In this document: positions 763 through 12,584 of the stretch, piece after piece
How positions within the stretch are numbered: position 1 is the first letter of the stretch
Layout of the letters: each line of letters opens with the position of its first letter
Assembly: GCA_007695365.1 (NCBI GenBank)
Contig: REDV01000101.1
Span: 1 to 44,489 of the forward strand
DNA: 44,489 nt
Source: Cryomorphaceae bacterium
GTDB lineage: Bacteria > Bacteroidota > Bacteroidia > Flavobacteriales_D > SKUL01
Reading direction: 5' to 3'
Made by a program: the position numbers and the translations under genes
The notes under the pieces: model-generated
What the model saw: only the letters and a program-made list of their open reading frames with translations
Database searches by the model: none
What the model was told of the DNA's origin: nothing

Positions 763-2073
763 CTAGTCCATAATAAGGCGAATGGTGTTTCGCTCACCAC
801 GGTGGCTTACTTCCAACAGATACATACCGGCGGGCAAGCCTTGCCTGTGCAGGGTAACCCAATCGGCGTTTTGAATTCCGTAATCAAACACAAGAGCTCC
901 GAGCGTATTGAACAGTCGGAGGTGAACACCGGCTCCCAGTTCGCTCAAGTCCACATTTACATGGTCGCGCACAGGATTGGGAAAGGCCTTAACGCGCCCA
1001 ATGGCTACCACCTCATCCACCGAAGTGGGGATGGGTGCCGGCCCGTACTCACAGGTAAGCGGTGCATCACACACAAAGTGGTACAACCAGTTTCGCGAAA
1101 TCACTATGGTAGTATCGTAAATCTGTGCGTTGGTGCTGTGCGGCACGTGATCGAAACCCACGTGCGTTTCGAGGCAGGCGGTAAGGCCAATGTTCTCCGC
1201 CCGCGCCTGGATGGATGCGCTGCCATCTACCGGTATCAGGTTAATAAACCCAAGAAAAACCAGGGTCTCCGAACCATAAGGCACGGTTCCGTCTTCATCA
1301 CCGTGAAAGCTCAATACCGGGGTTTCATTGGCCTGCATCCAGGTGGTATCGCCAATGGCCCCTGCGATATTGATGATGGCTGTCAGCTCTGAGCTGTAAC
1401 CGGCATTTCCGGTATTTCCTTCCAGTCCGCCATCCAATCCGGGCGCATTCATATCAATGCCTTCGGGCACCTCATCCAGTGAATTGAGAAAGCCTGTGTG
1501 CAATGCCATGAATCCACCGGCAGAGACACCTGTCATAAAGACCTTGTCGGGATTAATACCGTAGGGATTTCCATCCTCCTCTACCGACTTTCGGAAAAAG
1601 CGTATGGCTGCGCGCGCGTCGTGCACCGCTCTCCATACCGCTTTGGTAACTGAGTTGGGCGTGGGAATAAACTGACCGGGATCCGTTGCCCCCAGGCGGT
1701 ACTGTATAGAAGCCGCCACATAACCCAAACGGGCAAAATCCTGGCAGAGAGGAACCACATCGTTTCCTGTTTTACTACCCGCTACAAAAGAGCCTCCATG
1801 GGCAACAATAATGAGGGGACGATTGGTTTCGGTGTCACCTTCCGGAGTGTAGACATCCAAAAAAAGATCCTGCATGTTTCCGGCAGAATTCAGATTGGCT
1901 CCGTACTGAACATCACTCTGCACATCCCAGCTACTGAACACAAATTCACGGTAGCGTTCACCGTCGCATTGGGCCGAAATGTTGGAAGGAAAAGCAGCCA
2001 CAGCTGCAAGCAGAAGGCCGCCCATCATCGGTCGGACACCCCTCTGCATCATGGTTTCAAAAACAGGTTGCAT
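763..2073 (-). CDS. Secreted alpha/beta hydrolase (carboxylesterase-like) with T9SS C-terminal sorting domain
   Basis: The protein is 436 residues from the first ATG. The alpha/beta-hydrolase fold is shown by the oxyanion-hole motif HGGSF (about residue 92), the nucleophile elbow GVSAGG (Ser near 183), an HGDEDGTVPYG acid loop and a late His (DHVPHS). These place it near the carboxylesterase/dienelactone hydrolase group; the substrate cannot be told. The last ~75 residues carry a type IX secretion sorting domain: FPNPVRD near the start, an LRLFNTLG strand, LPAGMYLLEV and a final TIRLIMD. The N-terminus has a hydrophobic signal peptide ending in ...NISAQ. Start is uncertain: Met codons at residues 8, 9 and 16 would shorten a long n-region, and residue 8 (position 2052) is attractive. 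It is a single-gene unit, divergent from korA, with its own terminator. Expected location: exported across the outer membrane and surface-anchored or released. Confidence 0.85.
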   Translation of the reverse strand: MQPVFETMMQRGVRPMMGGLLLAAVAAFPSNISAQCDGERYREFVFSSWDVQSDVQYGANLNSAGNMQDLFLDVYTPEGDTETNRPLIIVAHGGSFVAGSKTGNDVVPLCQDFARLGYVAASIQYRLGATDPGQFIPTPNSVTKAVWRAVHDARAAIRFFRKSVEEDGNPYGINPDKVFMTGVSAGGFMALHTGFLNSLDEVPEGIDMNAPGLDGGLEGNTGNAGYSSELTAIINIAGAIGDTTWMQANETPVLSFHGDEDGTVPYGSETLVFLGFINLIPVDGSASIQARAENIGLTACLETHVGFDHVPHSTNAQIYDTTIVISRNWLYHFVCDAPLTCEYGPAPIPTSVDEVVAIGRVKAFPNPVRDHVNVDLSELGAGVHLRLFNTLGALVFDYGIQNADWVTLHRQGLPAGMYLLEVSHRGERNTIRLIMD

Positions 2074-2110
2074 CTTTGTTTGGTTTTAGGATTGGAATTA
2101 AACTACTGCG

Positions 2111-2142
2111 TTTGGTTACGTTCATCAATGGAGATACCTTTG
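2111..2142 (+). promoter_or_regulatory. Bacteroidota-type promoter of korAB
   Basis: TTTG at 2111-2114 and TACCTTTG at 2135-2142 are separated by 20 nt. This is the textbook Bacteroidota arrangement (-33 TTTG, 19-21 nt, -7 TAnnTTTG) and the best complete match in the window. It predicts transcription from about 2147 and a leader of about 65 nt before the GTG start of korA at 2211. Confidence 0.75.
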
Positions 2143-2210
2143 CATGAAATTTCGCAGCACCACGCAACAATCGCGGGCGGCTGCGGTTCTACCCATACAA
2201 ACCTCCATTT

Positions 2211-4082
2211 GTGGAAGCCGAAAATACAACAAAATCCACCCGTACCGAAGATCGCAAAGCGGTAACCATTCTTTTTGCCGGTGATTCCGGCGACGGTATT
2301 CAACTTACCGGCAGTCAGTTTTCTGACACCAACGCCCTTTTTGGCAACGATATCAGCACCTTTCCGAATTTCCCGGCTGAAATCCGGGCGCCACAAGGAA
2401 CGCTGGCAGGCGTTTCAGGATTCCAACTTCACTTCGGAAGTGTAGAAGTTTTTTCGCCTGGCGACCAGTGCGACGTGCTGGTGGTGATGAACGCAGCGGC
2501 ACTCAAAGCCAACCTCAGCAACCTGAAAATAGGCGGAACCATCATTGCCAATACCGATGGTTTCGACAAGAAAAACCTTCGACTGGCCGGTTACGTGGAT
2601 GTGCAAAATCCGCTTACCGACCAAAGCCTGGGGCAATACCGCGTGGTGGAAATTGCCGTTACGCAAATGACCCGCGAGGCGCTCAAGGACTTTGAATTGG
2701 GCATGAAGGAAAAAGACCGCAGCAAAAACATGTTTGTGCTCGGTTTTATCTGCTGGATGTACAACCGGAGCCTGAACCGCACCCTCGACTTTTTGAACGA
2801 GAAATTTGCCGGTAAGCCCGATATTATCCAATCCAATGAAGCAGTGCTTCGTGCGGGATACAATTTTGGCGATACTTCTGAGACCTTTACCAGCAGGTAC
2901 GACGTAAAACCTGCCCCACTGAAAAAAGGGGTGTACCGCAACATCATGGGTAACCAGGCTACGGCCATCGGGCTGATTGCCGGGGCTGAAAAAGCAGGCC
3001 TGGAGCTATTTTACGGCTCCTACCCCATTACGCCGGCTTCCGACATACTGCACGAACTGGCGCGCCACAAAAACTTTGGGGTACGCACCTTTCAGGCCGA
3101 GGACGAAATTGCAGCCATTTGCTCTGCCATTGGGTCGTCGTTTGCCGGAGGACTGGGAGTAACTGCTTCTTCGGGGCCGGGTATTGCCCTCAAAGGCGAG
3201 GCTCTTGGTTTGGCGGTTATGCTCGAATTGCCGCTGGTGGTGGTAAATGTGCAACGCGGAGGACCGTCCACCGGATTACCTACCAAAACCGAGCAGGCCG
3301 ATTTGCTGCAGGCCCTGAACGGGCGTAATGGCGAAGCGCCTGTACCGGTTATTGCCGCAGCACATCCTTCAGACTGTTTTTGGATGGCCTACGAAGCCGT
3401 ACGCATTGCCGTTGAGCACATGACGCCTGTGATGCTGCTTACCGACGGGTATGTGGCCAACGGAGCTGAGCCCTGGCGATTCCCCAAGTCGGATGATTTG
3501 AAACCCATCAAGCCCAACTTTGCCAATCCCGAAGACTACAAGGAAGATGAATACCTCCCTTATAAGCGCGACGATAGAGGCGTGCGCAAATGGGCCACAC
3601 CCGGAATGATCAACCTTCAGCACCGCATTGGTGGCCTTGAAAAGCAAGACCTCACCGGAAATGTTTCTTACGACCCCGAAAACCACGAGCGCATGGTAAA
3701 GCTGCGCGAAGAAAAAGTGCGTCGCATTGCCGATTTCTTTCCTGCATTGGGCATTGAAATAGGCGACGAAAAAGGCGATCTGCTGATTTTGGGCTGGGGA
3801 AGCACCTATGGCGCCATTCGCACAGCAGTGAGGGATCTGAACGAGGAAGGCTACCGGGTAAGTCACGCACACTTGCGACACCTGTTTCCCTTCCCCAAAA
3901 ACCTTGGAGCAGTGCTTGGTAACTTTAAAAAAGTTCTCATTCCCGAACTCAACCGCGGCCAATTGCGTCAGTTGATTCGCGCAGAATTTCTGATTGACGC
4001 ACAAGGCCTGAACAAGGTGCAGGGCATGCCCCTTCGCACCGAGGAAATCAAAGAGGCCGCTATTCAAACATTGAACGCATGA
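2211..4082 (+). CDS. korA: 2-oxoacid:ferredoxin (2-oxoglutarate-type) oxidoreductase, fused gamma-alpha subunit
   Basis: The 623-residue product is the large subunit of a two-subunit 2-oxoacid:acceptor oxidoreductase, which converts a 2-oxoacid (most likely 2-oxoglutarate) plus CoA to acyl-CoA, CO2 and reduced ferredoxin. The N-terminal ~190 residues are the gamma domain ([13 protein letters not shown] near residue 22). From about residue 240 comes the alpha (pyrimidine-binding) domain, with [25 protein letters not shown] and SGPG motifs; a transketolase C-like domain follows. The start is GTG at 2211, the only sensible one before the conserved gamma domain. The stop overlaps the korB start (ATGA at 4079-4082), so the two are translationally coupled. 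Substrate assignment to 2-oxoglutarate is from family similarity; a related 2-oxoacid cannot be excluded. Confidence 0.92.
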
Positions 4083-5116
4083 GCACAGCAACCATCACGC
4101 CCGCCGAAATGAGCCCCAAGGACTTTGCCACCGACCAGGAGGTACGGTGGTGTCCGGGTTGTGGCGACTATTCGATACTAAAACAAGTGCAGTCTATTAT
4201 GCCAGAAGCAGGCCGGCGGCCCGAGGATGTGGTATTTATTTCCGGCATCGGGTGCTCCTCGCGCTTTCCGTATTATATGAACACTTACGGAATGCACAGC
4301 ATTCACGGCAGAGCACCGGCCATTGCCAGCGGTGTTAAAACCACGCGACCGGATTTGAGCGTTTGGCTGATTACCGGCGATGGCGACGCACTGTCAATCG
4401 GGGGCAATCACCTCATACACCTTTTGCGGCGCAATGTAGATTTGAATGTGCTCCTGTTCAACAATGAGATTTACGGGCTCACCAAGGGCCAGTACTCGCC
4501 CACTTCACCGGAGGGCACCGTAACCAAAAGCACACCCATGGGCTCGCTGGATCATCCTTTTAATCCGCTGGCTTTGGCCGCCGGAGCCGATGGTTCTTTT
4601 ATTGCCCGCGCCATGGATCGCGACCCCAAACATTTGCGTGATATTTTGCTGGCAGCAGATCGCCACCGAGGCACCTCGCTCATTGAAATCTACCAAAACT
4701 GCAACGTGTTTAACGACGGGGCATTTGAGGTGTTTACCGAAAAGAACTCGAAACCCGAAACCACGCTTTTCATGGAAGAAGGAAAGCCGCTGCTTTTCGG
4801 TTCGGAAATGAATAAAGGCATTTGGCTCGATGGCTCTACTCCCAGGGTTGCAGATGTTTCCAAAGGCGAAAAAGGCCTTGAAGACCTATGGGTACACGAT
4901 TCGTCTGACCCTTTTAAAGCCAGTCTCTTGTATCGCTTTTTCGGAACCACGCAGTGGGAAGAGAAGCTACCTCGCCCGTTTGGTGTCTTCTTCCAAAAAG
5001 AGCGAAGCACCTATGAAAAAGACCTCAACGCACAAATCAACAAAGCCGCTGAGTTGAAGGGAAAGGGCAATCTGGATGCACTGCTTAGGGGTAAAAACAC
5101 CTGGGAAATAAGCTAA
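4079..5116 (+). CDS. korB: 2-oxoacid:ferredoxin (2-oxoglutarate-type) oxidoreductase, beta subunit
   Basis: This 345-residue protein is the thiamine-diphosphate subunit partner of the preceding gene. Cys25 and Cys28 (CPGCGD) and Cys59 (GIGCSSR), together with a later Cys in QNCNVF, are the expected ligands of a single [4Fe-4S] cluster. The ThDP/Mg motif is the GDGD...[11 protein letters not shown] segment. The length matches stand-alone beta subunits of this class. It overlaps korA by 4 nt and shares its promoter at 2111-2142. No ferredoxin gene is beside it. In aerobic Bacteroidota this enzyme commonly stands in for, or beside, the 2-oxoglutarate dehydrogenase step of the citric acid cycle. 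Confidence 0.93.
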
Positions 5117-6703: not shown

Positions 6704-8551
6704 ATGACCTACCCAAGTCTGAAAATATTTTCATTTCCTACTATTTTAAGGCGTGTTAAAACCCTTCGCGCCATCCTGTTCTTGCTAATGGCAAGCATGG
6801 GCGCGCAGGGGCAGTCTGTTTTCGAAACAATTACACCTTTCCCTCAGTCGGTATTTGTGAACGGAGTGGCAGAAGACCCATGGGGCCATTTGCTTGTGTT
6901 TGGCGAAACCACCATCGGCGGAGGCCCTTTTGGAGGTGGCCAGACCAACCTGGTGCTGATGAAGCACAAACCGGATGGCACGCTGATGTGGACCCGGTAC
7001 TACACTTCGGCGGTGAATGACGGAGTTTATCACATTAGTCTGGCTGCGCAAGGTGATCATTATGCACTGGCAGGTTTCTCCATAGGTACGGGCACAGACA
7101 GTCGTGATGGACTGCTGATTTTAACCGACACGGCAGGAACGGTTGTTGAGACCATTCGTGCAGATCACGGTGGCGGTTCAAACGCTTATCATTCAATTGC
7201 CGCTGCCGATAATGGATGGGTACTATCTGGCAGAAGCACTGCGGGTGCCGGTGGCAGCTACGACCTTCAACTCATTCGGCTTGAAACCGATGGCACCCCC
7301 GTTTTTGCCAAAACCTTTGGCGGCAATGACTGGGATTGGGCTTATTGGGCAGAGCCCTACGGCGATGGTTACTTAATGGCGGGCTACGGCGACAGTTTTG
7401 ACGGAGGCTTCAGCGATCCGTTTCTGGTTCGCACCGACTCTGCCGGAAACCCCATTTGGGCCCGTACCATCAGCACACCCACGGCCGAAGACGGTCTCTT
7501 CACAACTTCCGATTCGCAGGGAAATATTTTTCTCACCGGATACACCCTTGGGATGATTCCCGGCAATCCTCAAAACAAAGGCTTTGTTGCAAAGTTTGAT
7601 CCCGACGGCGATATGCTTTGGTGTCGTGCAATTCCCGGGTGGGTAAGTATTCCTAGTATGTGCGTAACCAACGACGACCGCGTGGTGGTGGTTGGGAATG
7701 CCCTGGATGCTCCAGACGGCCTTGGCGGGCAGGATATCGGACTTGTTCTTCTCTCTCCGGGTGGCGAGGTGCTGCAGAGTTATCGCTACGGGAGCGAAAC
7801 AACGGACTATGTATCGCACGTGATTGCCCTTGAAGATGGAAATATTTTAATTGCCGGGGGATCGGCTGGTTTCGGAACAACTGCCTTTAAACCGTACATT
7901 ATCAAAGCATCGCCCACGGGCATGACAGACTGCAACTTCATTCCTTACGATTTCCCGGTTACTGCGGTGGATGTAAATGTTGTTTCCCCGAACTACCTCA
8001 CTGCCGACGGTATCAGCCATTTTGACTGGAGTGTGACCACCACAGACGCAGAGGCTGAGAGCGAAAAGCTTTGCTGCCCACCGGATGCGATTGCTTCATT
8101 TGTTCTGTTTGATGATTTCGGGTTTGTGAGCACCAGTGAAAATGCCACGTCATTGATCTGGGAGGTAAACGGCGAAGTTCAAGCTGCCACCGGTGATACA
8201 TTGACTATTGATGTGGTGCCGGGGGAGCTTTACGAAATCTGCCTCACCGCATCCAATCCGTGCAGCGAAGACGTGTACTGTGAGACCCATGTTTTTGAAG
8301 CCACTTTTGTGGATGACATTGATAGGCCCAGCCTGACGCTGTTCCCAAATCCGTCGCGTGGCACTTTCCAGGTTCGCGGTTTGGACAACCCTTCTCACAT
8401 ACGAATCATTGACCTGAGCGGCAGAACCATAGAAGACATCGGACTGGTGCAACCCGGTGAGCTTCTTCACATCAATCAGCTGGCTGGAATGTACTTTGTT
8501 TCTATCACAGCGGGTCAGGAGGTGCAAACGCTTAAGCTTCTTTTGGACTAG
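6704..8551 (+). CDS. Large secreted repeat protein with T9SS sorting domain
   Basis: The product is 615 residues with an N-terminal signal peptide (LRAILFLLMASMGAQGQ) after a longish n-region. Residues ~40-410 are built of repeats of about 50 residues of the pattern 'G..I...G.T......D..L....D..G...W......G', for example LVLMKHKPDGTLMWTRYY and PFLVRTDSAGNPIWARTI. This is the pattern of beta-propeller-like exported proteins often annotated as delta-60 or PQQ-like repeats. A Cys-containing PKD/Ig-like module follows (about 455-535). The end is a T9SS tail (LTLFPNPSRGTFQV, LAGMYFVSI, TLKLLLD). No enzymatic motif is visible; a binding or adhesive role is a guess. It overlaps the convergent DUF1275 gene by 4 nt. 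Confidence 0.82.
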   Translation: MTYPSLKIFSFPTILRRVKTLRAILFLLMASMGAQGQSVFETITPFPQSVFVNGVAEDPWGHLLVFGETTIGGGPFGGGQTNLVLMKHKPDGTLMWTRYYTSAVNDGVYHISLAAQGDHYALAGFSIGTGTDSRDGLLILTDTAGTVVETIRADHGGGSNAYHSIAAADNGWVLSGRSTAGAGGSYDLQLIRLETDGTPVFAKTFGGNDWDWAYWAEPYGDGYLMAGYGDSFDGGFSDPFLVRTDSAGNPIWARTISTPTAEDGLFTTSDSQGNIFLTGYTLGMIPGNPQNKGFVAKFDPDGDMLWCRAIPGWVSIPSMCVTNDDRVVVVGNALDAPDGLGGQDIGLVLLSPGGEVLQSYRYGSETTDYVSHVIALEDGNILIAGGSAGFGTTAFKPYIIKASPTGMTDCNFIPYDFPVTAVDVNVVSPNYLTADGISHFDWSVTTTDAEAESEKLCCPPDAIASFVLFDDFGFVSTSENATSLIWEVNGEVQAATGDTLTIDVVPGELYEICLTASNPCSEDVYCETHVFEATFVDDIDRPSLTLFPNPSRGTFQVRGLDNPSHIRIIDLSGRTIEDIGLVQPGELLHINQLAGMYFVSITAGQEVQTLKLLLD

Positions 8552-9841: not shown

Positions 9842-10342
9842 TTACGAGTTTGCGGTTACACCATCAAAAAACATGTCGGCCAGTTGCGCTTCGCCATGCA
9901 AGCCTTCTACTCCTTTCCAATCAAGTTTGTGAATCCTGATATCACTTTGGGCAATAAACGGAGTTAAATCATAACTCAAGCTATTGTGCAGATTGGGTTT
10001 GTAACCAACAGGTATATAAGCCTCCTGAATACCTTGACTTTCTATGAACTTGTCAACAAATTCCTGATTATGCCCAATTACGATTTCCTTTCTGATATCC
10101 ACCAACAGGGTACCGTATTTGTTCCAGATCAGTTCAACGGCCTGTTCATACTCATGATTGGTCAATCTCTTGAGTGTTCTGGTTTTTGAGAAAAACAACA
10201 GCTCAGTAATCGAATCGCTGAGATGCATGCCGTGGGCAAGCACAACTTCAATTTTCTCATCCTTTCGTTTATTTAGTGCAGTCTTTAGAAAAGCCAAAGA
10301 CCCTATACTGAAATCGGTAGGGAAGAGTACGGTGGTAATCAT
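9842..10342 (-). CDS. Universal stress protein (UspA)-like protein
   Basis: I choose ATG 10342 over the longer frame beginning at 10384. The family starts with a strand like TTVLFPTDFS, which begins at this Met, and the extra residues would run into the repeat array. The 166-residue product shows the UspA first strand and the following helix (SLAFLKTAL) and second strand (EVVLAHG). The canonical G-2x-G-9x-G(S/T) ATP-binding motif near the C-terminus is not visible, so it may be a non-ATP-binding member. It is first in a three-gene minus-strand run and directly follows the histidine kinase gene, separated by 137 nt that hold a phased repeat array. I infer that the two-component system controls it. 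Confidence 0.65.
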   Translation of the reverse strand: MITTVLFPTDFSIGSLAFLKTALNKRKDEKIEVVLAHGMHLSDSITELLFFSKTRTLKRLTNHEYEQAVELIWNKYGTLLVDIRKEIVIGHNQEFVDKFIESQGIQEAYIPVGYKPNLHNSLSYDLTPFIAQSDIRIHKLDWKGVEGLHGEAQLADMFFDGVTANS

Positions 10343-10363
10343 GGGGTGTGTTTTTCGTGTGAC

Positions 10364-10371
10364 ACAAAGAT
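10364..10371 (-). promoter_or_regulatory. Degenerate -7 promoter element of the UspA-like gene
   Basis: On the minus strand the sequence is CATCTTTG, one mismatch from TAnnTTTG, 21 nt before the start at 10342. There is no TTTG at -33; the place where it should be is occupied by TCTAAT repeats. This is what one would expect of an activator-dependent promoter. Confidence 0.4.
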
Positions 10372-10380
10372 GAGACACAC

Positions 10381-10484
10381 CCATTAGAGCCGAATTAGGT
10401 TGAGATTAGAAGTTGCTTAAAATGAAATTAAAATGAAATTAGAAACGTCATTTCACATTAGAACTACATTAGACCGCGGTTAGT
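10381..10484 (-). promoter_or_regulatory. Array of 11-bp-phased TCTAAT half-sites, probable response-regulator operator
   Basis: On the + strand, ATTAGA-like hexamers (TCTAAT on the minus strand) begin at 10383, 10394, 10405, 10416 (CTTAAA), 10427 (ATTAAA) and 10438. After a 19-bp step they resume at 10457, 10468 and 10479 (GTTAGT). The 11-bp phase is exact within each block. OmpR/PhoB-class winged-helix regulators bind direct repeats of about 10-11 bp, and the neighbouring regulator at 11871-12584 belongs to that class. The array ends 10 nt upstream of the degenerate -7 element of the UspA-like gene and overlaps the histidine kinase stop codon. Binding is inferred, not shown. Confidence 0.6.
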
Positions 10485-11871
10485 CGGTTTCGAATTTACC
10501 GATGGGCAGTGATATCTGAACTGTGGTACCCTTTTCCACGATTGATTTCACCTCAAGTTTAGCCTTGTGCATGCGGAGTATGTTTCTTGCCAACGGAAGG
10601 CCGATACCAAAACCTTCGAATTTTGAGGTATTTGAGGCTCTGAAGAATGGATCATAGATGTATTTGAGTTCCTCGTTGGGTATACCGATGCCGTAATCCC
10701 TAACCACCAGAACGACGTAGTTTTCGGTTGCTCCCAACGACACCTCTACCTGTTTAAAATCAGAGTATTTACAGGCATTGCTAATGATGTTCGACAGGGC
10801 CAGATGAAGAAGTTGTTCGTTTCCGAGTACCTTCAACTTAGCAGGGTTATCCGGCAGCAAGCTCATATCCAGGTTGATTTTATACCTGCTATTGATGCGT
10901 TGCAATGTTTCTTTTACATCCCAAAGCAGTTGGTCAACGCGCACCTTTGCCATAAGCTGGGTTTTACCGTCGAATCCGGTTTGAGCCAGATACAGCAAGG
11001 CTGCGGTTTTTTGTTCAAGACTTTCCGCTTCTTCAAGAATCACTTTGATGGTTTCAATGTATTCTTCGGGCGATCTGAGTTTATTGAGTGCTACATCGGC
11101 TTCACCGATGATGGCCGTAAGTGGGGTGCGCAACTCGTGTGAGGCGTTGCTGATAAAGTTATTCTGAGTTTCAAATGATGTTTCTATTCTGTCGAGCATG
11201 TAGTTAAAGGTAGATGTCAGTTCGCGCAGCTCCTCGTTACCTTGATTGGCCTCCAGCCTGAGGTGCAAACTTTCTGAACTGATCCGTCGAACCTGATCGG
11301 TAATGGTTCTCAACGGTTTGAACACCGAACGCGAATAGTAAACCGAAATAATCACCGAAAAAACAAAGGCCACCAAAATGGCAATGATGAGTGTTCTCTT
11401 AAGATACTGGGTATGATGGGTTTCAAAGTAATTTGCAGCAGAAGCAATGGCAATGTACTCGCCAGAATCGCCCATGTAGCGTATGCCTTTGTAGAGATAT
11501 TCATTCTTTTTATACGTCGCCGCTCCTTTCGCAAGTACTTCCTGAAAGAAAGATTCCGGAATCCCCAATTCGAGTGATTCATCGCTGTACGCTTTGCCGG
11601 GTTTGATCTCAAAAAAATAATCTCTTTCATGGGGCAGACGCTCAAAGAAGCGTTCCTGTAGCTCCTGCGCGTCGGGCCTGCGCTCGCTGTTCAGCTCTGC
11701 TCTTGCAGCCGTAAGTAGCCTTATATCCAGAAGTTTATCGAAATCCTCATAGGAATAGGACTTCACAGAGACATACACATACCCACTAAACAGAAGAATA
11801 AGGGCGAAAAATGAAAACAACAAAATCAGCGTTGTTTTGCTGTGCAGTCCCATATGCATCCGCACGCTCAT
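10480..11871 (-). CDS. Sensor histidine kinase, partner of the OmpR-class regulator
   Basis: The 463-residue inner-membrane kinase has TM1 at about residues 12-34, an extracytoplasmic sensor region of ~125 residues, TM2 at about 160-180 (TLIIAILVAFVFSVIISVYY), and HAMP. HisKA follows with the phospho-accepting His in NASHELRTPL near residue 246, then HATPase with N box (SNIISNACKYSD), DYGIGIP and GFGIGLPLAR. All catalytic motifs are intact. The start ATG overlaps the regulator's stop (TAATG at 11869-11873), so regulator and kinase are coupled. The signal sensed is unknown; no metal- or ligand-binding motif stands out in the sensor region. The stop codon lies within the last half-site of the operator array, suggesting a shared control circuit with the downstream UspA-like run. 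Confidence 0.93.
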   Translation of the reverse strand: MSVRMHMGLHSKTTLILLFSFFALILLFSGYVYVSVKSYSYEDFDKLLDIRLLTAARAELNSERRPDAQELQERFFERLPHERDYFFEIKPGKAYSDESLELGIPESFFQEVLAKGAATYKKNEYLYKGIRYMGDSGEYIAIASAANYFETHHTQYLKRTLIIAILVAFVFSVIISVYYSRSVFKPLRTITDQVRRISSESLHLRLEANQGNEELRELTSTFNYMLDRIETSFETQNNFISNASHELRTPLTAIIGEADVALNKLRSPEEYIETIKVILEEAESLEQKTAALLYLAQTGFDGKTQLMAKVRVDQLLWDVKETLQRINSRYKINLDMSLLPDNPAKLKVLGNEQLLHLALSNIISNACKYSDFKQVEVSLGATENYVVLVVRDYGIGIPNEELKYIYDPFFRASNTSKFEGFGIGLPLARNILRMHKAKLEVKSIVEKGTTVQISLPIGKFETD

Positions 11872-12584
11872 TACCTTTCTCCCTCTTTTAGGACGTAGCC
11901 CATGCCAATCACGGTATGTATCAATTTAGGATCGAACCGGGCATCCATTTTTTTACGAAGGTAGTTTACATAAACGTCCACTACATTGGTACCCATATCG
12001 AAATTCACCCCCCACACTTCTTCGAGGATATCGCTGCGAGAGAGCACCCTGTTTTTGTTTCGCGCCATATAGTAAAGCAGCCGGTATTCTGTTGACGTCA
12101 GGGAAATTTCGGTGCCATCGCGGTACACCTGTTTGGTCTCATCGTTTATTTCCAGATCCGCTATGCGAATCACATGACTGGCATCTCCCTTATCTTCAGA
12201 GTTATTCCCCGCATTATCCACCCTTCGCAATAGGGTACGCATTCTAGCCAGTAACTCAATGAATTTAAACGGTTTTACCAGATAATCATCGGCCCCTGTT
12301 TCCAGGCCAAGCACTATATTTTCGGGGGTACCCAGTGCTGTGAGAAAAAGAACAGGCACTACCGTATCCGTTTTCCTGATTTCCTTGCACACCTCTAACC
12401 CGTTGACATCGGGCAACATGATATCCAGAATGATGAAATCAAACCCTCCGTCTTCAAAGAGTTTCAATCCCGATTTCCCATCGAAAGCAACGCTTACCGA
12501 AAAACCCTCTTCAGTAAGCCCTTTCTGAATAAACGAAACCACGTGAGCTTCGTCCTCAACCAATAAAATCCTCTTGCCTTTCAC
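11871..12584 (-). CDS. OmpR/PhoB-family response regulator
   Basis: The 237-residue regulator has an N-terminal receiver domain (acidic pocket E10, D11; phospho-acceptor Asp54 in ILDIMLPD; Thr in FLTALG; Lys in YLVKPF). A linker and a C-terminal winged-helix DNA-binding domain follow (ISLTSTEYRLLYYMARN ... VVDVYVNYLRKKMD ... IHTVIGMGYVL). It is upstream of and coupled to its kinase. A TAATTTTG promoter element lies only 8 nt before its start codon. Its likely target is the array at 10381-10484, which has the 11-bp direct-repeat geometry of this class. Which stimulus it answers to is unknown. Confidence 0.93.
   Translation of the reverse strand: MKGKRILLVEDEAHVVSFIQKGLTEEGFSVSVAFDGKSGLKLFEDGGFDFIILDIMLPDVNGLEVCKEIRKTDTVVPVLFLTALGTPENIVLGLETGADDYLVKPFKFIELLARMRTLLRRVDNAGNNSEDKGDASHVIRIADLEINDETKQVYRDGTEISLTSTEYRLLYYMARNKNRVLSRSDILEEVWGVNFDMGTNVVDVYVNYLRKKMDARFDPKLIHTVIGMGYVLKEGER

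Follow-up and report, generated by a model that had tools for sequence, protein, structure and literature searches.

A conserved 11-bp phased hexamer array as the probable operator of a usp–lipocalin–DUF1275 operon beside an OmpR-family two-component system in Bacteroidota

The DNA analysed here, called the window below, is a stretch of 44,489 nucleotides from a Cryomorphaceae bacterium. Genes for a response regulator and a sensor histidine kinase, overlapping by one base, are followed by an array of phased hexamers and by genes for a Usp-like, a lipocalin-like and a DUF1275 protein, all on the minus strand (Table 1). The regulator and kinase lie directly upstream of the array, as the original prediction had claimed.

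Table 1. Features of the array locus, with positions in the window.
Feature	Positions	Strand	Basis or remark
OmpR/PhoB-family response regulator, 237 aa, proposed array binder	11871..12584	-	Pfam Response_reg and Trans_reg_C
Sensor histidine kinase, 463 aa, HAMP, HisKA, HATPase_c	10480..11871	-	Pfam
Weak ninth hexamer, ACTAAC, overlapping the kinase stop codon	10479..10484	-	Not conserved in relatives
Distal half-site pair, TCTAAT-N5-TCTAAT	10457..10473	-	Pair at a 19–20 bp step in 33 scored usp loci
Main block, six half-sites in 11-bp phase	10383..10443	-	Register to -7 box conserved
-7 element, CATCTTTG (TAnnTTTG type)	10365..10372	-	16 bp from nearest half-site start; 69/71 loci
Usp-like protein, 166 aa, first gene of the operon	9842..10342	-	Start conserved in relatives
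Small lipocalin-like protein, 159 aa	9358..9837	-	L060 relative passes PF13648
DUF1275 protein, 262 aa	8548..9336	-	PF06912, E=2e-32

The regulator has a receiver domain and a winged-helix Trans_reg_C domain, as expected of the OmpR/PhoB family. Its best NCBIfam profile was cztR_silR_copR (TIGR01387), and the closest named profile for the kinase was of the CusS type (TIGR01386). The likeness to the CusR/CopR/SilR and CusS systems is limited, however: the regulator scored 241.9 bits against a cut-off of 279.2, the kinase also fell under its curated cut-off, and there are no metal-efflux genes in the window operon. RprY of Bacteroides, an OmpR-family regulator from the same phylum, was rejected as an identity for the regulator, with a profile score (NF051850) of 145.6 bits, far under the cut-off of 370. 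Overall confidence in the full-length kinase model was low (pTM 0.39).

No Pfam Usp hit over the gathering cut-off was obtained for the Usp-like protein of the window, and 8 of 53 family members matched this profile (best 5.4e-7). Its predicted model had a mean pLDDT of 86.5, and the best PDB matches were 2dum, 1mjh, 3hgm and 3s3t, with TM-scores of only about 0.5; judged by this model, the protein has the Usp fold. The longest open reading frame (9842-10384, 180 aa) begins inside the array, and the start conserved in relatives is the ATG at 10342. The window lipocalin-like protein had no Pfam hit, while its relative at L060 scored 24.2 bits against Lipocalin_4 (PF13648, cut-off 22.4).

Read on the plus strand, the main block consists of ATTAGA (10383), ATTAGG (10394), ATTAGA (10405), CTTAAA (10416), ATTAAA (10427) and ATTAGA (10438), and further hexamers follow at 10457 (ATTAGA), 10468 (ATTAGA) and 10479 (GTTAGT). 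Five of the nine are exact ATTAGA. In the direction of the operon, from 10443 to 10383, the main block reads TCTAAT, TTTAAT, TTTAAG, TCTAAT, CCTAAT, TCTAAT, and it is separated from the distal pair by a 19-bp step. All hexamer starts, the 11-bp phase and the 19-bp step were found where they had been predicted. Of the nine half-sites originally counted, six plus two are good; the ninth, at whose position relatives show GTTAAC or no hexamer, is weak. It is probably not a functional half-site and was dropped, leaving six plus two as the defensible count.

The array stood out in a scan that used no preset motif, covered periods of 8–16 and scored six units out of 36. The top score in the window, 32/36, fell at 10383 with period 11, while 120 Markov-shuffled windows peaked at 29, and the array score was never matched when the surrounding AT-rich sequence was shuffled 3000 times. 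A search of the genome for phased hexamers, as proposed in the original prediction, found the four-unit pattern (up to three mismatches) at just two sites in 3.52 Mb, the window array and C57:29108-29146. No sigma-70 -35/-10 promoter was found.

Downstream of the array, a -7 element of the TAnnTTTG type had been placed at 10364-10371, which is off by one base, as CATCTTTG occupies 10372-10365 on the minus strand. The box is degenerate, as predicted, and also in the nearest relative, where it reads GACATTTG. The TAnnTTTG element of F. psychrophilum spans -12 to -5 (PMC9723704). Using this position, transcription is predicted to start near 10360, unit 1 occupies roughly -28 to -23 and unit 2 roughly -39 to -34, and the operator thus overlaps or abuts the -33/-35 region of the promoter. 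The claim that the array covers -33 must be modified accordingly: -33 falls in the spacer between units 1 and 2, and these units flank it.

A joint search for hexamers and box found a TAnnTTTG-like box 16 bp from the nearest hexamer start in 69 of 71 usp loci. Because this search itself used the hexamers, it was repeated with boxes picked blind to them, in the 37 loci where a single exact TAnnTTTG precedes usp. An exact TYTAAT occurred 16 bp upstream of the box in 28 of the 37, at 38 bp in 32 and at 49 bp in 35. The offset of 27 bp is occupied by a degenerate unit (e.g., NTTAAG or TCTTAA). Farther out, exact TYTAAT was found at 68 or 69 bp in 24 loci and at 79 or 80 bp in 22, and the remaining offsets were near zero. 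The half-sites are same-strand direct repeats at about one helical turn.

The kinase was used to scan one genome per species, which gave 80 loci at 39–95% identity, spanning Flavobacterium, Chitinophagaceae, Cytophagales-type genera and Pedobacter/Mucilaginibacter. Nearly all 80 have a same-strand 11-bp TYTAAT array directly after the kinase, the usual order being regulator, kinase, array and Usp, and in about 40 loci this order continues with lipocalin and DUF1275. In units 1, 3 and 4, most hexamer columns are 80–100% conserved, the second position (C/T) less so, and the spacers are far less conserved than the hexamers. The array, its register and its conservation are thus directly observed. 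The original prediction had staked itself on the phase being kept in relatives, and phase, strand and -7 distance are indeed conserved across Bacteroidota.

Most loci have four contiguous units. Six are found in the window, its nearest relative, L058, L077 and L084, eight in L057 and ten in L056; in L059, L061 and L064, a count of six depends on weak units. Among the scored loci, arrays of four or more units always had an even number. The automatic rule gave one unit or none for three loci (L046, L047 and L030; one unit in two of them, none in the third), which by eye prove to have four units, the middle ones being weak or the anchor misplaced. The even numbers suggest that arrays may grow by whole dimers, in 22-bp steps, although few independent events stand behind them. 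The loci are related, and their counts do not represent independent events. Long arrays had been described as unusual. This must be trimmed, since four units, often with a distal pair, are the norm for the usp operon and up to ten occur, and since Streptomyces PhoP binds 11-nt direct repeat units that at pitH2 comprise four core and two ancillary ones and at glpQ overlap the -35 (PMC7866108). The layout of a core block plus extra units resembles that of the window array, but the PhoP unit is GTTCACC and belongs to a phosphate-starvation regulon in Actinobacteria.

The array goes with usp: at three loci where usp and the kinase gene are separated (L016, L067 and L084), it stands before usp. Twelve genomes were then picked for having a regulator–kinase or kinase locus without an adjacent usp; five of them have a detached usp of the window's family, and the array precedes it in all five, three of these arrays being weaker. 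Arrays without usp were found before carbonic anhydrase (L025) and before lipocalin–DUF1275 (L060). It could be argued that the array is a by-product, such as an AT-rich tandem repeat, a transcript end or RNA structure, or a coding constraint on the 3' end of the kinase gene, as it is AT-rich and abuts the kinase stop codon. We consider this very remote. A feature of the kinase 3' end is ruled out by the array accompanying usp when the two genes are separated; moreover, the spacers vary while the hexamers stay constant, neither a terminator-like site nor an Rfam match (at E<=1) was found at the array, and the phased score exceeds that of local shuffles.

The array also goes with a clade of regulators. 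The window genome encodes seven OmpR-type regulators with Trans_reg_C domains, two of which match the window regulator at E<=1e-60, namely itself and the one at C57, and each of the two four-unit arrays in this genome lies directly behind an OmpR-type regulator–kinase pair. The C57 array (L095, about 7108-7147) reads TCTAAT, TCTAAT, TCTAAA, TCTAAA, with a -7 box 28 bp away rather than 16, and lies between its own kinase gene and a gene for an Omp85-family outer membrane protein; L127 and L129 are similar loci. In 30 related genomes the pattern was uncommon; in several AT-rich ones it was no more frequent than in the reversed control, whereas the Runella genomes gave 13–14 matches against 0–1 in that control. 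Twenty array regions, chosen by eye as TCTAAT-like so that the proportions are illustrative, were read: nine adjoin OmpR-type regulator–kinase pairs and two more adjoin usp. In Runella, three successive four-unit arrays lie behind one regulator–kinase pair (L138:6544-7704; also G006:C25:52081-53237), each preceding a small gene, and the short protein products of two of these genes closely resemble each other and have signal-like N-termini.

For an unselected test, regulators were taken from 99 genomes drawn evenly from the phylum and chosen neither by array nor by kinase. In this sample, a TYTAAT array follows the kinase for nearly all regulators with about 53% identity or more to that of the window, and for none below about 49%. 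At L155, no kinase follows and the array comes after the regulator; on the reverse strand of this locus (1592-4113), the order is regulator, array, Usp-like and bestrophin, with no kinase match between. The one clear exception at or above about 53% is L150, where the array sits at a usp elsewhere. Against a link to the neighbouring regulator stand a few close regulator–kinase pairs without an adjacent array, those of L017, L069 and L150; in two of them a usp elsewhere carries the array, and in the genome of L069 no usp of the window's family was found. The association of the array with usp and with this regulator clade is thus a matter of observation. In seven loci at 44–48% identity (L169, L172 and L174-L178), an 11-bp array of the TTTAAG type lies near the operon start, either upstream or in antisense orientation; the one in L174 (885-923) comes ahead of a gene for a small membrane protein, which is itself followed by the regulator gene. 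These distant arrays suggest that the hexamer may change with the regulator clade.

Taken as a whole, the array is very probably the operator of the usp–lipocalin–DUF1275 promoter, bound by the neighbouring OmpR-family regulator, which most likely activates this promoter. The kinase would phosphorylate the neighbouring regulator, which would then bind the 11-bp direct repeats head to tail; we infer that one dimer covers two units, or 22 bp. The promoter-proximal units flanking -33 would recruit RNA polymerase to the promoter with its degenerate -7 box (class II activation), and the distal pair would take one extra dimer. The model of a local circuit of regulator and operon put forward in the original prediction is well supported by the conserved phase, by the gene order in about 40 loci and by the arrays beside close relatives of the regulator.

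The array might instead be bound mainly by another OmpR-family regulator, such as the C57 paralogue, or be shared by several. Cross-binding is possible, since several paralogous regulators in Runella accompany similar arrays; the C57 pair also has a four-unit TCTAAT array of its own, and the two recognition helices are similar (TNFIDVYINYLRKK vs TNVVDVYVNYLRKK). This is improbable, however, because the C57 array differs in its -7 distance (28 vs 16 bp) and in its TCTAAA units, and because each array adjoins its own regulator–kinase pair.

The closest known sites are those of CovR (CsrR) in group A Streptococcus, which consist of two tandem ATTARA-like hexamers, head to tail, with a 5-bp spacer (PMC8893699). 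The ATTARA-type hexamers of the window (reverse complement TYTAAT) and their 5-bp spacers match these. CovR, however, acts globally through scattered, loosely matching sites, whereas here a single operon has 4–10 units at a fixed -7 distance; the phylum and the regulator are also different, and as only general OmpR-family similarity to CovR was noted for the window regulator, no membership is claimed. Since CovR represses many targets (PMC8893699) and only 10 bp separate the -7 box from the nearest unit of the window array, the same regulator on the same operator might repress the operon by blocking polymerase near -33/-7. This is unlikely, though less so than binding by another regulator. Activation is favoured over repression because a degenerate -7 box, seen in both the window and its nearest relative, is expected of an activated promoter, and because the strictly fixed spacing to the box would fit contact with polymerase better than simple blocking.

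The genes downstream of Usp are lipocalin–DUF1275 in 42 loci, bestrophin in 17 and SulP in 9. At L063 (6470-9950), a single operon behind the array comprises Usp, SulP, bestrophin and carbonic anhydrase, which hints at bicarbonate or anion handling. Where their roles are known, SulP, bestrophin and carbonic anhydrase act on anions and bicarbonate, and our guess is therefore that the operon serves anion or bicarbonate balance or response. A broader reading, to which we give somewhat less than even weight, is that an OmpR clade of Bacteroidota, perhaps reaching wider, uses one operator code of 11-bp half-sites, dimer steps (4, 6, 8, 10) and a fixed -7 distance (16 bp here), and that the window's clade controls an uncharacterised response to anions or bicarbonate through it. 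The array would usually stand directly behind the kinase, each two-component system thereby labelling the operon it controls, and the targets would be Usp together with either SulP, bestrophin and carbonic anhydrase or lipocalin and DUF1275.

The mechanism is of a known kind; this member, its regulon and its reach across the phylum appear to be undescribed in the literature searched. What appears new is the proposed target, an operon of Usp with lipocalin/DUF1275, SulP, bestrophin or carbonic anhydrase, together with its spread across Bacteroidota. Searches for a Bacteroidota operator of this kind, or for DUF1275 with a two-component system, gave nothing on point, most subscription journals lying outside the search, and a search on ArlR sites returned nothing.

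Few response-regulator operators seem to have been described in Bacteroidota, judging from this search, and the present one can be read from sequence alone and is conserved over much of the phylum. Through it, a two-component system that is still uncharacterised is linked to a handful of targets: a divergent Usp, a small lipocalin and DUF1275, in alternation with SulP, bestrophin and carbonic anhydrase. This opens the regulator, its signal and the DUF1275 family to testing, with operon and regulator treated as one switch, and the even unit numbers would offer a simple handle on dimer-wise cooperative binding.
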